Below are positions 49,468 through 55,257 of a DNA stretch of 64,000 nucleotides, piece by piece. The notes under the pieces are model-generated. The model did no database searches. It saw only the letters and a program-made list of their open reading frames with translations, and was not told the origin of the DNA. This DNA is from Tetraselmis striata (lineage: Eukaryota; Chlorophyta; Chlorodendrophyceae; Chlorodendrales; Chlorodendraceae): the NCBI GenBank assembly GCA_006384855.1, contig VCJN01001566.1, positions 1 to 64,000 of the forward strand, written 5' to 3'. How positions within the stretch are numbered: the first letter of the stretch is position 1; every line of letters starts with the position of its first letter. Made by a program: the position numbers and the translations under genes.

Positions 49468-50190
49468 TATACATCATGGGCCGTATGTCCACATGGATCT
49501 TCACATATATGTTGTCATAGCATCGCAGATTGCACTGTCCCTGTTCACATATATAATGTATAGTCCTTACATTTCACTAGCTACAACTTAACATATTTTG
49601 CTAGCTATAAATAATTGATAGCTTGCTTGTAACCATCGATAATTTGGGTTCTTATAATATAATAATGTTATTATATGGTACTTCAATATTTTTACATCAG
49701 GGCTTTCACAAATGCGCACTACAAACAGAAATAACAGCAACTATGAAAGGTTGCCAGCAAAAGATAGACATAAGCCTGAGACATAAACCAAGGTCGAGCA
49801 GGAGGCCAGGAAGCCAAGAACCAAAGAGGAGCCAAGGGAACCACGAAGTCGCCAAGCTGCTAAAACCAAAGGGACCACCGCCCCGGGGTAGTAGGCTATC
49901 AGCCGCGGCGAGGACGCTTGCAGCCAATGACCCGGGTCATAGCAACACATGCCGACGAGCGACGCGACGCAGGCGCAGGAGCACCATCACGTGCCGCGCG
50001 CGGGGCCGCGACCCCGTCAAGAACGTTGTCTGCATGTGGCATGTTGGTGAGCAAGGAGATATTATGGTTATGCCACGTAATTGCCCTATAGCTATTTTAA
50101 TTTACCATCTGTACCGACCGGAGGTACCTGTACCGACCGTACTACGTATAGCGCTATATGGCCATACCAGTACGTGGCGGGCATGTGCTA
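49468..50190. other. intergenic, no gene recognised
   Basis: AT-rich at first (49500-49700), then GC-rich. A plus-strand frame (49623-50351) runs into the TIR of the next element and has no recognisable domain. Short GTACC-containing repeats occur at 50110-50175. Confidence 0.5.
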
Positions 50191-50308
50191 TAGAGGAGTT
50201 CCACAATAAGGTGCATGTACCGAATTACGGTGTTAAGAATTCGTACCCGTATTTTCGCTACGGAGAACCGCTCCGCAGCCCAGGGCCAGCGCACCGCGCC
50301 CGCGCAGT
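50191..50308. repeat. left terminal inverted repeat of the two-gene transposon
   Basis: Pairs with 55131-55257. It starts 186 bp before the nuclease ATG, so it probably also contains that gene's promoter. Confidence 0.85.
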
Positions 50309-50376
50309 TGCATTGCTGACCGCCGTCGGCACATCGTCATTCCAACCCTAACCGCTCCGTGTTGGCCACCCACGAG

Positions 50377-52791
50377 ATGGGTATCCCATGTCTCCTTACC
50401 CTCGTTGACCCCATATGCGAGAAGACCAACTTGTATGCACTGGCCCGCGGGAGGCGTTTAGGCATTGACGGTCACGTTTGGATGCACCAGTTGGGGTACC
50501 ACCACGCGCAGTCCATCGTCTTGGACAAGGACTACGAGCCGCTCGCCAAGCACTTCCTGCAGCAAACACAGTCTGTTCTCGAGCGAGGGGTAGACCTTTT
50601 GTTTGTCTTCGATGGAGCACCCACGCCCGCGAAGCGGTCTACAGACTCCGCGCGTCAGGTTAGGCGTGCGAAAGCGTATGCCGCAGTTCAGTACGATGGC
50701 GCTAAAGCCGACCCTAAGATGCTGCGCGCCACTGTTTCCTTGGGATGGCCGGTTGTCGTGGCAGTGTTATCACAGCTCCGCCGCGCAGGGATCCCCTACA
50801 TCGTCGCGCCCTTTGAGGCAGACGCGCAGCTGTCTTTGCTTGCGCGCGACGGGAAGATATGGGCTGCAGTCACAATCGACAGCGACTTCATCATCCACGG
50901 CTTGCCCTGGGTTTTTTTAAGGTCAACTGGAGGTCAGGCCGTTGTCTTTTCTACTCCAAGGCGGTGCTGCAGGATCCTGACCGGTGGCCAGAACTGCCAT
51001 CCAAGTTTAAGCCGCCGCAGCAGCTTTTACCCATCGTGAAGGATGCTGGGCTGCCTGCTCTGTTGTGCTTCGGGCTGCTGGACGGCTGTGATTATGGTAC
51101 CAAGATAAGGGGTGTCGGTGTGGTGAAAGCCGCGGAAATCCTGGAGGATGTGGTTACGCAGCATGGTGCTGCTGCGCTCCAAGATGTCAGAGGAGCAGTG
51201 ACTCTAATGGCGCAGGAAGTTCTAAAGCACCTCAACAGGCGGGGAGGTAACCCCCCCCCCCCTCCCAAAATGGTAACTCCAGTGCCGACTTCACATTGTG
51301 GAGTGCTATTTTTTTTCTATTCTTTTTTCTTGCCAAGTGCACTTTTAACAATTCTGCATCACTATTCTGCATGCTGTGTGCTGTGCAGATTTTGATGCCG
51401 ATGCATGGATACCTACTGCACTTAACGCCATTGATGTATTTCAGCACGCGCTGGCGTATAATCCCGAAACGCGCAAAGTGGAGACTGTCGACCATATGCC
51501 AATCAACGAGGCCATCACGCGCTGGCCCTTCCTCGGCTTCAACATTAATGATTGCGATGCGGAGGGCAGGGCATTGGGCCTCATCAGCCCTGCAGGGGCA
51601 CCTCAGGAGCTACCTCTTGTGAGCAGTATTCACACTCCAGCCATTGCATGGCAGCTGATAGAAGATATGGTCCTGGGCCCAGAGCTGCAGGAGCCTTTTC
51701 CATTACCAAATGAACATGGTGAGTGGCCGGCTGACTTCAGCCCGACCGTTGCACAACTGCGGCACTGGTGCCGTACCAGAAATGGAATGCCTTTATTCTC
51801 TGGGGCATCTCGCTCCGACCTGGTGAGGCGGGTGAAGGAGCGTCAATTGGTGGAGAAAGAAATGCTGGATAAGGAAGAGCGGGTGCTGTTTCGTGACCCG
51901 CATGGCCGCAGTCTCCAGGATCATATTCTGTCCAGTCACCCTGATCAGGCATGGCATTTCGCTGAGGCTACTGATGGCGAACGAGAGGAGCTGCTGCTCA
52001 CAGAGGGCTGGGTGACTGGCATTCAACAGATTGGGCGCGATGCGCCCTCTGTGGATCAGACGCTTTTGCTGTCGCACTGGGAGCACAGATTATACCTGCT
52101 GAATGGTGGTACGCGTACAATCCTAGACGACGCCTTCTCCCGCGTTGCGGAGATGCAGCACCTGCCTCACTTTGCGTTTCACCCCAATGAGAACGCAACC
52201 ATGCCTAGCACTGGGCATGGAGGGAGTCAAAGGTCGGTCTTCTTCAAGTTTTCAGCCCCAGCCAGCCAGCGTATGGAGACAACCTACCACGTGTGGGTGG
52301 AGTGCAGCGTGTCAGCACTTCCAGGCTTGCGCCCTTTCATTTCCCGCATCCTGCGTTGTGGCTGCACATGCCCTCTGAGATCAAGTGCAGATTGTGTGCA
52401 TTTGCTCATGCTTATGGTGGTCATTCTGAACCTGCCGCGCCCATGGGGTGAGCCACCCCGCACCTCTTTGCGCTGCGCATGGCTGAATCATGGGAACGGC
52501 GACACCTACGACGTCACCACCCCCTTGCCTTTCATTCCATTCATGCACACCAGCTTCACTCCTCAGCGCCTCAGGGACGCAAGTGGGATGGCGAGGCGGG
52601 TGCTGCCCGTTTCAGACAATGCAGGGTGGCGCGACAAGTTCAACCATGTGCCACTCGCGGACCGCGATGCCGTTCAACATGGCCGCAGCACTGCAGCACG
52701 TGTGGCTGCCATGGAGGCGCTATGGGAGGAGATGCAGCGTGCCCTAAACGGAGACCGATGTGCAGCCGATGTTGCGTGGCGTGGGCTGTGA
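50377..52791 (+). CDS. FEN1/EXO1-family nuclease fused to SAP motif and SWIM zinc finger
   Basis: Predicted structure-specific 5' nuclease. Exon 1 (50377-51246) starts MGIPCLLTLVDP, the invariant Met-Gly start of the family, and keeps all acidic motifs: IDGHVWMHQ, LLFVFDGAPTPAKR, VAPFEADAQLSLLARDG, VTIDSDFI, and LLDGCDYGTKIRGVGVVKA, the last with the helix-two-turn-helix. A GT-AG intron (51247-51388, C-run right after the donor) joins LNRRG to DFDADAWIPTALNA. Exon 2 carries a SAP-like helix pair (PTVAQLRHWCRTRNG, about 51745-51860) and a SWIM finger CGCTCPLRSSADCVH (about 52355-52400), giving about 757 residues. A T-run near 50912 appears one base short: the frame shifts there from ...HGLPWVF to FKVNWRSG. 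This may be a recent inactivating change or a sequencing slip. The fusion and the surrounding TIRs argue against a host EXO1 or FEN1. Confidence 0.85.
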
Positions 52792-52948
52792 GCTTGATGT
52801 TGTGGCTGCAAACACGTACTTGTGCTGTGTGCATGCAGTGCAGGGCAGAGCAACATATGGTAGGCCACATCATAGGCCGGGTGGGACAGGGCCCCTCACC
52901 CATACCCTTCCACAGGGTGGGGGATATGTAACCATCATCCACATTTTT

Positions 52949-55080
52949 TTACGTGTGAGACGGTTCAGAAATAAATATTGCATTACATTGGAAGTCTGCC
53001 TCTGCAGCCTCTTGCTCTGCATCCACCGCACCAGTGGATGCTGAGCTGCAAAGAGGGCGCTGCAGGTTGCACAGATGTCCTACGACATTAAAGGCCTTCT
53101 CTATCATATCTACAGAGTATAGAGACAGTTTCTTACCAGAGAAGGCCCTCCAGTTCTGCACGCGGCTGAAATGCCGCTCTACATGGATGCGCAGGTTAGA
53201 CTTCTCTCCGTTGCCCTGCCTCTCATCCGCTGTGTAGTGACGCTGCCCCTGCCAACGCCGCGCTGGTGCAACAATGCGTGCACCGCGCGTAACAACCAAC
53301 GCCTCGCACTGGTCAAACCCCTTGTCTGCTGGGATGCAGACACCCCTCTGCAGGATCTGCAGCCAGTGGGAAACGCGTAATATGTATGTGTCTGAGATGC
53401 GGCCAGAATATGCTTGAGAGGTACCGCAATAGGCACCCACATGGAGGACTGCAGCCAACAGCTTGGCTGTGTGGGCTGTTTTGTAATCAGAGTAACATGT
53501 CCGAGCTGCTTTCTTGCCGCATGGCTTTTGGAGCCTGAGCTTTGTGCAGTCCAGCACAAACCGTACCAACGCGCCGTACGCCTCCCTCCACTCAGGATGC
53601 ACCCGGTCCAACATATCCGCCGTGCTGGGGACGGGGAACTCCGCTTTGAAAAACTGATCAAGGTAAGAAATCCATGTCGGGAAAATGCGGGTGAGGCACG
53701 ACACCTTGATTCCTGACCACGCACTGATGATGCGGGTCCCCTAGCCCAGTGCGTAGCTTCACCAGAGTGACCAGCAAAGCATTCTGCGTAGTGAAGGTCC
53801 GCTGTTCCGGTTTCCCGACTGACTCGCGTTGTGCATTGCCATTAGCCTCCGCCTCCATGCGCTGCATGCTCTGCTTGCCGTTCCAGTAGCGCAGCCGGTC
53901 CGCCACTCCCTCGCAGTTCACTCATTCATAGAATTTCTGCAGAGACTGGGCAGTTGGAAACCCATCAATGTGATTGATGCAAGCATTCCAGGCAGAACCT
54001 TCCTTCATCACATTCTCCCATGTGAGCCGGTCCACCAGCCAGTCCGTCGAGCATGCCGTCAATCTCCGCATTTTTCCTCTCCATCTCCTTAGCCAGGTTA
54101 GCTATCACATTGCCACCTGTGTGCTGAGCAGCGCCAAGCTGCGCCTGCACGTGCTCAAGCCGCTCCATCAGCACCTCCTTCCCCCTCGCCGCCTGCCCAA
54201 GCTTCTCCCGCAGCCTCTCCGCCTCTATTTTTGCTGTTGAGTAAAGATTCTTGTTGTCCGCCAATTGTTCCTCCAACAGCTTAATTCTCGACCGCATGTG
54301 GGAAACCACCAGCGGGTCCATCTCTGATGCACCAGACCGAGGGCGAGGAGCAGGCGGTTGCTGCATGGGCTCATTTAAACCGCCGCGTGGCAGCGGCGAG
54401 CCCCAACGAGCCGGGGCACTAGGCGGCAGCCTAGGTGAGGGGGGGTGTTCTCCGGCTCCCTAATGCTCGGAGACCTTGGCCTCACTCTAGAGAGGACAGA
54501 GGACGTAGCTGCTCGCTACTTGCTGTTTGTGCTTATGCTCCTGAGCGGTGACCGAAACCCTGCCCGCGGACCTGCCGGCGTCGACGGCTGCACACCAGTG
54601 GAGCCTACTGCGGCAGCCATGCCAGCTCCACGGGAGAGAGGGCGCTGACGCACGGGGGTAGCAGCGCTGACGGGCGGCGGCCGCGGCGCTGCCTGTCGCG
54701 CGCAGTTTTGGTCAACTGCATCCTTGAACGGCAGAGGGGTTGCACCGGGCTTCAACGCCTTACCCACCGCGCCACCTTTTCTCTTGATGTCCCTTTTGTC
54801 GCTGTCCGCGAAGTGGGAGGTGTGTACCTTGTAGCTCCTAGGGTTCTTCAGCACCTTGTCGCGGTAAGTTGGGTCATTGAAGACGAGGATGTCGACGACC
54901 TTCCGGTAGTGGTCTGGGTCACGCGCGAGCGTGTCCATGCCATGCACATTCTTGGTGACCGGTTTGCGACAGTTCGGGTGGTTGCACACGCAGTATTCCC
55001 CGCGTGCATCTTTCGGGGTGGTTAGCGGAGTGTTTTGCGTCGACATGATGTGGGTATGAGAAGTAGGAGCTGACGGTGTG
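52949..55080 (-). CDS. DDE_Tnp_4 transposase with THAP-like finger and coiled coil
   Basis: The parts in order are: a THAP-like zinc finger (54860-55040; CVCNHPNCRK, then YKVHTSHFADSDK with His-x2-His where THAP has Cys-x2-His); a Pro-rich linker; a leucine-rich coiled coil (53965-54330, IKLLEEQLADNKNLYSTAKI); an HTH region (about 53700-53830, NALLVTLVKLRTGLGD); and the catalytic domain (52949-53704). The latter shows VLDCTKLRLQKP, YSDYKTAHTAKLLA, GRISDTYIL, PADKGF and RIHVERHFSRV; the presumed triad is Asp52, Asp127 and Glu176 of the last segment. The pieces lie in different frames; introns are likely between finger and coiled coil, and a frame change occurs at the HTH/core junction near 53700. 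It should cut at the TIRs. Confidence 0.8.
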
Positions 55081-55130
55081 GTGACTGGCGACAAGATGTG
55101 AGCAATGTGGGAGCGACCGAGTCAACAATT

Positions 55131-55257
55131 CTGCGCGGGCGCGGTGCGCTGGCCCTGCTGGGCTGCGGAGAGGTTCTCCGTAGCGAAAATACGGGTACGA
55201 ATGCTTAACACCGTAATTCTGCACGGGCACTACGTTACTGTGGAATTCCCCTATCTA
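55131..55257. repeat. right terminal inverted repeat of the two-gene transposon
   Basis: Reverse complement of 50191-50308, with a 3-base insertion and a few substitutions in the core. It lies just upstream of the transposase start. Confidence 0.85.

Follow-up and report, generated by a model that had tools for sequence, protein, structure and literature searches.

A predicted EXO1-type accessory nuclease in a multi-copy DNA transposon from the green alga Tetraselmis striata

The ISL2EU elements are a group of the PHIS superfamily, surveyed in 14 host species, all of them animals (Han et al. 2015, PMC4482050; this and the other papers cited were consulted in part). Their transposases combine DDE, helix-turn-helix (HTH) and THAP domains, and most autonomous elements have a second gene with a YqaJ exonuclease domain, as a first-pass annotation of the locus described here had noted. 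The elements average about 4840 bp, have terminal inverted repeats (TIRs) of 6-259 bp that usually start with GG, and generate an AT 2-bp target-site duplication, flanked as in A/AT/T (PMC4482050; slashes mark boundaries here and below). PIF/Harbinger elements differ in their TWA 3-bp duplication and Myb/SANT second protein, and the functions of the additional PHIS genes were still unknown according to the 2015 survey (PMC4482050). Accessory nucleases are also found in Kolobok elements, where they are lambda-exonuclease-like (KolobokE), DEDDh (KolobokD) or His-Me (KolobokP) enzymes (PMC9587614). Here, we describe an element at positions 50192-55252 of a 64,000-nucleotide stretch of Tetraselmis striata DNA (the window; VCJN01001566.1, positions 1 to 64,000, from assembly GCA_006384855.1), which pairs a transposase gene with a gene for a predicted EXO1-type nuclease.

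The element, whose limits were set by termini compared across copies, belongs to a multi-copy DNA transposon. The contig that contains the window is 173 kb long, in a eukaryotic assembly of 224 Mb (the prefixes C, L and P below denote contigs, loci and proteins). Between TIRs of about 117 bp, there are two convergent genes, for an XPG-family nuclease on the plus strand and for a transposase on the minus strand (Table 1). The inverted repeats comprise the pairs 50211-50283/55158-55230 (92% identity) and 50281-50307/55131-55157 (100% identity), and the left and right ends of this copy match at 87%. The terminal 15-mer, with at most 2 mismatches allowed, occurs twice in the window, once at each element end; in 100 shuffles the mean was 0.19, and two occurrences were seen in one shuffle. 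The first-pass annotation had already placed two convergent genes between TIRs of about 120 bp; its limits, 50191..55257, capture the element and miss the exact ends by 1-5 bases. Both genes of the window copy are broken. It is probably non-autonomous, because the nuclease is frame-shifted and the transposase is spread over several frames.

A DNA search identified 13 loci of the window's family, namely C1267 (the window), C2226, C1905, C1116, C751, C2218, C2768, C1398, C747, C1445, C2470, C427 and C2631, the first six of which are near full length. Pieces of the 12 other loci are 92-98% identical to the window copy. The same search found 67-78% identity in C1508, C1590, C1293 and C2846, a 144-bp fragment of the window's family in C1469, and further short matches elsewhere. 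Subfamily B (C2683, C2011, C1259, C418) is more diverged, with 41-42% protein identity to the window's family in the transposase and 37-46% in nuclease segments. The ends read TATAGAGGAGTTCCACAATAA in the window's family, TATAGAGTTTTTCCACAATAA in subfamily B and TATAGATGATTTCCACGATAA in the second subfamily. More distant nuclease loci are found in C644, C1742, C533, C1619, C2713, C2106 and C2178.

The two genes recur as a pair. The genome contains 29 XPG_I matches (from 52 scored candidates), and for 15 of them a DDE_Tnp_4 match lies at most 5 kb away, in convergent orientation in every case. The DDE_Tnp_4 search yielded at least 150 matches, 150 of 187 candidates having been scored, and by hand arithmetic about 0.2 pairs would be expected under independent scatter; the 15 paired loci represent four lineages (8, 3, 3 and 1 loci), not 15 independent events. 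Six more nuclease loci have transposase sequence by tblastn or DNA match (C1742, C533, C1445, C1619, C418 and C2178, weakly in C1619 and C2178). This is the co-occurrence for which the first-pass annotation had proposed a test, with the same convergent layout in diverged subfamilies. Inverted repeats arising by chance, and a solitary host gene, were rejected as explanations in view of the copies, the subfamilies and the gene pairing. The element is a real, recurrent and evolutionarily maintained transposon with a predicted EXO1-type accessory nuclease.

Table 1. Features of the window copy and the evidence for them
Feature	Position	Strand	Evidence or remark
Left AT target-site duplication	50190..50191	no strand	comparison with two sister copies having empty sites
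Left TIR, start AGAGGAGTTCCACAATAA	50192..50307	+	inverted-repeat search, termini compared across copies
Accessory exon 1: XPG_N and XPG_I, EXO1-type nuclease domain	50377..51246	+	frame broken near 50915-50920 in window copy
GT-AG intron, accessory gene	51247..51388	+	transcript P0001 continuous over equivalent junction of copy C2226
Accessory exon 2: linker, SAP motif, middle region, SWIM motif, TSxxCxW motif	51389..52791	+	
SAP motif TVAQLRHWCRTRNGMPLFSGASRSDLVRRVKE	51745..51840	+	motif and hhalign against YqaJ proteins; no Pfam call
SWIM CxC..CxH motif, then TSLRCAW	52357..52482	+	sub-threshold SWIM in relatives and hhalign against YqaJ proteins
Transposase gene remnant, several frames	52949..55046	-	
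DDE_Tnp_4 catalytic domain	53066..53554	-	candidate D 53543-53560, D 53312-53332, E 53171-53191; triad picked by inspection
Probable coiled coil of transposase	54133..54297	-	Pfam coiled-coil families matched below threshold only
THAP-fold zinc finger, C-x4-C ... H-x2-H-F	54810..54995	-	
Right TIR	55131..55252	-	inverted-repeat search, termini compared across copies
Right AT target-site duplication	55253..55254	no strand	

In exon 1 of the accessory gene, the window copy matches Pfam XPG_N with 43 bits (cut-off 22) and XPG_I with 42.2 bits (cut-off 24.9). The acidic residues D31, D79, E147, D149, D168, D170 and D239 (C2226 numbering), which we take to bind metal in XPG-type nucleases, are invariant in all eight aligned sequences, so that the family motifs are all present, as first proposed. 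The annotation had called the nuclease FEN1/EXO1-type and had expected a FEN1 fold. The XPG-family class stands, and FEN1 as nearest relative is ruled out: by sequence and predicted fold, the domain is nearer to EXO1 than to FEN1, XPG/RAD2 or GEN1, an assignment made on relatives rather than on the broken window copy. Identity to human EXO1 (PDB 5v0a and others) is 22-23%; unlike Exonuclease 1, the transposon version is transposon-borne and fused to SAP and SWIM domains. This fusion, another early claim that holds, rests on motif and profile comparison: Pfam gives no SAP call in the window element, and in the accessory relatives SWIM scores 11.2-11.6 bits against a cut-off of 19.6 in three of the five scanned and is unlisted in the other two. 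In the same relatives, Pfam lists neither a YqaJ match (five scanned) nor a Myb match for the second gene.

Four XPG_I loci are host-type by closest match, and only C2863 among them is clearly nearest a fungal EXO1. A SWIM search of the host genome gave one match. L036 (C2837:9880-10071) and L037 (C7:19800-19991) resemble each other; their XPG domains share about 26-31% identity with the transposon nucleases, and tblastn gave no match to the SAP-SWIM part in the 3.2 kb covered at each. They are possibly another lineage or a host paralogue. On C2837 a partial DDE_Tnp_4 match lies 5.0 kb beyond the XPG match, in convergent orientation. A distant member, L075 and L030 (C1619:332800-339305), has a nuclease about 35% identical and, downstream, TSMKCEWNQPR, a wording nearer to that of the YqaJ proteins than is found in the window's family; its transposase match was confined to the N-terminal part. 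A strict scan of 20 loci for SWIM followed by TSxxCxW found the combined motif in five and the second motif alone in two more; it missed C1742 and C533, where tblastn detects the region, and its misses, those at host-type loci included, mean little. A TIR motif scan of C644, C1742, C533 and C1619 gave one convincing end, in C644.

The DDE_Tnp_4 transposase of the early annotation is confirmed with 85.6 bits in the window (cut-off 24.8), and with 85.6-97.5 bits across the tested sequences. HTH_Tnp_4 (cut-off 27) passes the threshold with 34.4 bits in family B and 32.6 in P0137, narrowly misses it in P0132 (26.4) and P0133 (26.5), and scores 21.1, below the cut-off, in the window's family; precomputed assignments list it for all eight transposase relatives. 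For the THAP-like finger, a predicted structure was compared, because neither Pfam nor a profile search of the PDB gave a THAP match. The comparison supports the finger, with middling Z scores, as had been suggested, and the proposed coiled coil is probable.

For target sites, 12 pairs of flanks were joined and searched, with scores computed for only the best 40 among 4019 candidates. Empty counterparts were found for two insertions, that of C2011 (one site, on C586) and that of C1398 (a repeat, accounting for 39 of the best 40 matches, four of which were fetched). Occupied CTCC-AT/AGAG...CTCT/AT-ACCCG stands against empty CTCC-AT-ACCCG, and occupied TTGCG-AT/AGAGG...CCTCT/AT-ACTGG against empty TTGCG-AT-ACTGG. 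The simplest reading of these sequences is a 2-bp AT target-site duplication, as published for ISL2EU. The commonest flanks are T/AT/A, and the TIRs start with AGAGG, AGATG or AGAGT. The empty sites for C1398, L078-L081 (C2405, C1399, C759, C1288), belong to a high-copy repeat, to which matches recur every 1,520 bases or so along C612 and further contigs. L057/L058 (C2631:43896-44685) retains both ends but has lost internal sequence, leaving a MITE-like, non-autonomous copy of about 790 bp. At L041 (C1116:190267-190863), the left TIR is broken by about 480 bp of other sequence, which suggests a later nested insertion.

Both genes have counterparts in expressed sequence or in other organisms. 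P0001, a JGI and MMETSP transcript product, is identical to the last 697 of 757 residues of the spliced C2226 product, and C2226 is therefore transcribed and spliced as predicted. P0139, labelled jgi/Tetstr1 in EukProt, matches the C1259 transposase frame with 100% identity across 429 residues; with Tetstr1 read as T. striata, this points to that species as the host. The accessory protein search listed 11 proteins: P0001, P0005 from Prasinocladus (partial), seven metagenome proteins, a Coemansia EXO1 and a Dirofilaria RAD2. In the metagenome proteins P0002, P0003 and P0007, the nuclease, SWIM and TSxxCxW are found together; P0009 shows a variant of this arrangement, and the sequences of P0004, P0006 and P0008 are incomplete. 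The transposase search listed eight proteins. The nuclease and the transposase are probably co-located in those metagenome organisms too, because P0003 and P0135 list the same 5736-base contig, and P0006 and P0134 the same 8284-base contig. We infer that the start of P0006, MAIESFHNN, could be a reading frame through a terminal repeat like ATAGAG..TTCCACAATAA. Viral contigs gave 38 pattern matches and no relatives. In seven dN/dS comparisons by the NG86 method, four had high dS (2.2-4.6); among these, the accessory gene showed omega values of 0.036 and 0.094, and the transposase 0.115 and 0.125. Constraint on both genes is apparent from these alignments in outline only, because high dS values are unreliable.

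The part of the accessory protein that follows the nuclease resembles animal YqaJ proteins. A synthetic probe drew 769 proteins, 120 of which were examined; the probe itself carried SAP, SWIM, TSxxCxW and YqaJ motifs, and the sample is thus biased. Among these 120, 21 have a Pfam SAP domain, three are named SWIM-type and 109 contain the CxC..CxH motif. TSxx[CLMSV]xW lies at most 80 residues after the SWIM motif in 57, compared with a mean of 0.175 when those 80 residues were shuffled. The order in the alga, SAP, SWIM and TSLRCAW, is that of the SAP-SWIM-YqaJ proteins (for example P0013 of Pinctada and P0016 of Batillaria), in which, however, the YqaJ nuclease follows the SWIM part, whereas the EXO1-type nuclease of the alga precedes SAP. 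They were compared as proteins, independently of any transposon context. A profile of five algal-side sequences (C2226, P0002, P0003, P0007, P0009) was aligned with one of the part before YqaJ in 11 proteins (seven animal-named). From SAP to TSxxCxW, the probability was 98.2% (E 3.4e-14, 226 columns). The controls were the reversed profile, with a probability of 1.2%, and five shuffles of the columns, none of which exceeded 0.17%. Piece by piece, hhalign gave 92% for SAP, 98.1% for SWIM with TSxxCxW, and 1.6%, no detectable similarity, for the middle region. The evidence for common descent is accordingly confined to the two domains, their order and the TSxxCxW extension, and does not include the linker. 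To judge from these profiles, an EXO1-type nuclease looks to have been swapped onto a chassis related to the animal YqaJ proteins.

A YqaJ-carrying element of the same kind was sought in the T. striata genome and not found: there are two YqaJ loci only, with no DDE_Tnp_4 match listed on their contigs. These loci, L068 (C2605:161037-161417) and L069 (C613:237838-238221), lie in similar dense arrays of open reading frames, which look like integrated segments of dsDNA viruses.

Taken together, we consider it probable that the element is a cut-and-paste transposon of an ISL2EU-like lineage in Tetraselmis and Prasinocladus, and that its accessory protein brings a 5' nuclease to transposition intermediates, most likely for 5'→3' resection. 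The transposase would bind the long TIRs with its THAP finger, excise the element and join it at AT, duplicating these 2 bp. The nuclease, which may act on the element's own intermediates, would be positioned by SAP, a DNA- or chromatin-binding motif, and by the SWIM zinc finger. The EXO1-type domain would then resect, in the 5'→3' direction, the donor break left by excision, or end intermediates, and the resected donor break could be channelled into homologous gap filling, so that the donor copy is kept. Both EXO1 and the lambda-type exonucleases act 5'→3', so that the requirement shared with the YqaJ proteins would most simply be 5' resection.

An alternative step would be the removal of short 5' flaps, or of gaps, at the new insertion. 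The first-pass annotation had suggested such trimming while proposing a new nuclease in the place of YqaJ for the same step; we retain the replacement, and prefer resection since the domain is nearest EXO1. FEN1 is thought to trim 5' flaps in retroviral integration. In favour of trimming, flap endonucleases belong to the XPG family, there are EXO1 structures with 5' flap DNA (PDB titles), and a 2-bp duplication implies short gaps to repair. However, the domain is nearest EXO1, not FEN1, and its animal counterpart YqaJ is of the lambda-exonuclease type, for which flap cutting is not known as the main activity. Trimming instead of resection is thus rather unlikely, even though it has more in its favour than the other alternatives.

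The ISL2EU-like placement draws on domains, layout, duplication and profile similarity. In the parts of PMC4482050 consulted, the two kinds of element are alike in the DDE, THAP and HTH transposase, the nuclease protein as second gene, the AT duplication, a size of about 5 kb and a TIR length inside the published range. They differ in the EXO1-type domain, which replaces YqaJ at the opposite end of the accessory protein, and in the green algal instead of animal host. Full membership is not claimed, because the accessory protein has no YqaJ domain and the placement is by features rather than by phylogeny. PIF/Harbinger elements share the DDE transposase with HTH and the two-gene layout, and differ in having TWA rather than AT and Myb/SANT rather than nuclease-SAP-SWIM. 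Elsewhere, ISL2EU appears only as an outgroup (PMC3164196), is lumped with PIF/Harbinger in all groups (PMC4438587), or labels one 908-bp stretch in a Phytophthora parasitica repeat table (PMC8204020), all in the parts consulted; in view of this last label, the host range may be wider than animals. Kolobok provides a precedent for different nucleases by lineage within a single transposase superfamily, although it belongs to another superfamily and the portions of PMC9587614 considered contain no XPG-family nuclease. We found no report of ISL2EU in green algae in the open-access literature consulted. Nor did we find one of a transposon-borne XPG nuclease in the open-access literature, and a prior description in Repbase reports, subscription journals or preprints is possible. 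Relative to the ISL2EU kind as described in those sources, the nuclease, the host group and the termini are new here.

Several points weigh against an ISL2EU-like resecting transposon, among them the biased probe, the profile controls limited to reversal and shuffling, and the dissimilar middle region mentioned above. The TIRs begin with AG rather than GG (which is usual, not universal, in ISL2EU), and the flanks are mostly T/AT/A rather than A/AT/T. The occupied and empty sites equally fit insertion between A and T without duplication, of an element ending TAGAG..CTCTA and thus one base longer at each end. Both genes are open in none of the five sister copies examined, so that no autonomous copy was found among them: C1116 combines a 770-codon transposase frame with a break in accessory exon 2, in C2226 the accessory exons are open but the transposase is split, and C1905, C751 and C2218 have neither gene open. 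In C2683 of family B, the transposase frame runs to 677 codons and the first accessory exon is open. At 4 of the 25 nuclease loci that are not host-type, no transposase was matched within the stretches covered (C2106 40214-45000, C644 26996-33500, and 3.2 kb each in C7 and C2837). The dS was incalculable in two of the seven comparisons and near saturation in the four at high dS; an omega of 0.30 came from the only recent pair, which belongs to the second subfamily. Finally, the 5'→3' polarity is taken over from EXO1 and lambda-type enzymes.

Some of these points would also suit a transposase of a separate PHIS/Harbinger-like lineage, with the likeness to YqaJ proteins due to independent assembly. 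The SAP-SWIM chassis could be convergent, because SAP and SWIM are common small domains and the middle region is dissimilar; the TIR start and the target flanks deviate from published ISL2EU, and the papers characterising ISL2EU describe, in the parts consulted, animal elements. Yet the AT duplication, THAP fold, HTH_Tnp_4, two-gene layout and SWIM with TSxxCxW extension are common to the element and ISL2EU or YqaJ proteins, and nearly half of the YqaJ proteins examined carry TSxx[CLMSV]xW after SWIM, though the probe held such a motif. We regard a separate origin as improbable. That the nuclease is a captured host passenger gene of no benefit to the element is still far less credible: transposable elements can capture host genes, and the host has its own XPG-type loci (C1069, C2450, C2497 and C2863, by closest match), but layout and catalytic residues are kept across diverged subfamilies, the accessory gene has an omega of 0.04-0.09 in the comparisons at high dS (the sole recent pair being too small to decide), and relatives occur in other organisms, two of them apparently on one contig with a transposase.

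If the ISL2EU-like reading is right, the SAP-SWIM protein might be a targeting chassis onto which unrelated 5'→3' nucleases have been exchanged, YqaJ in animals and an EXO1-type enzyme in green algae, and 5' resection might be an obligatory element-encoded step of transposition or donor repair. We hold this broader idea tentatively, at a little under an even chance. Two unrelated nucleases of apparently the same polarity, on similar SAP-SWIM scaffolds and beside like transposases, would, if confirmed, argue by comparison for a single biochemical step common to both. The exchange suggests that 5'-end resection may be a real step in the movement of such elements, and if the step is shared, the question could be tested by killing or swapping the nuclease. 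ISL2EU-like elements would then extend to green algae, and XPG/EXO1 would join the nucleases recruited by DNA transposons.

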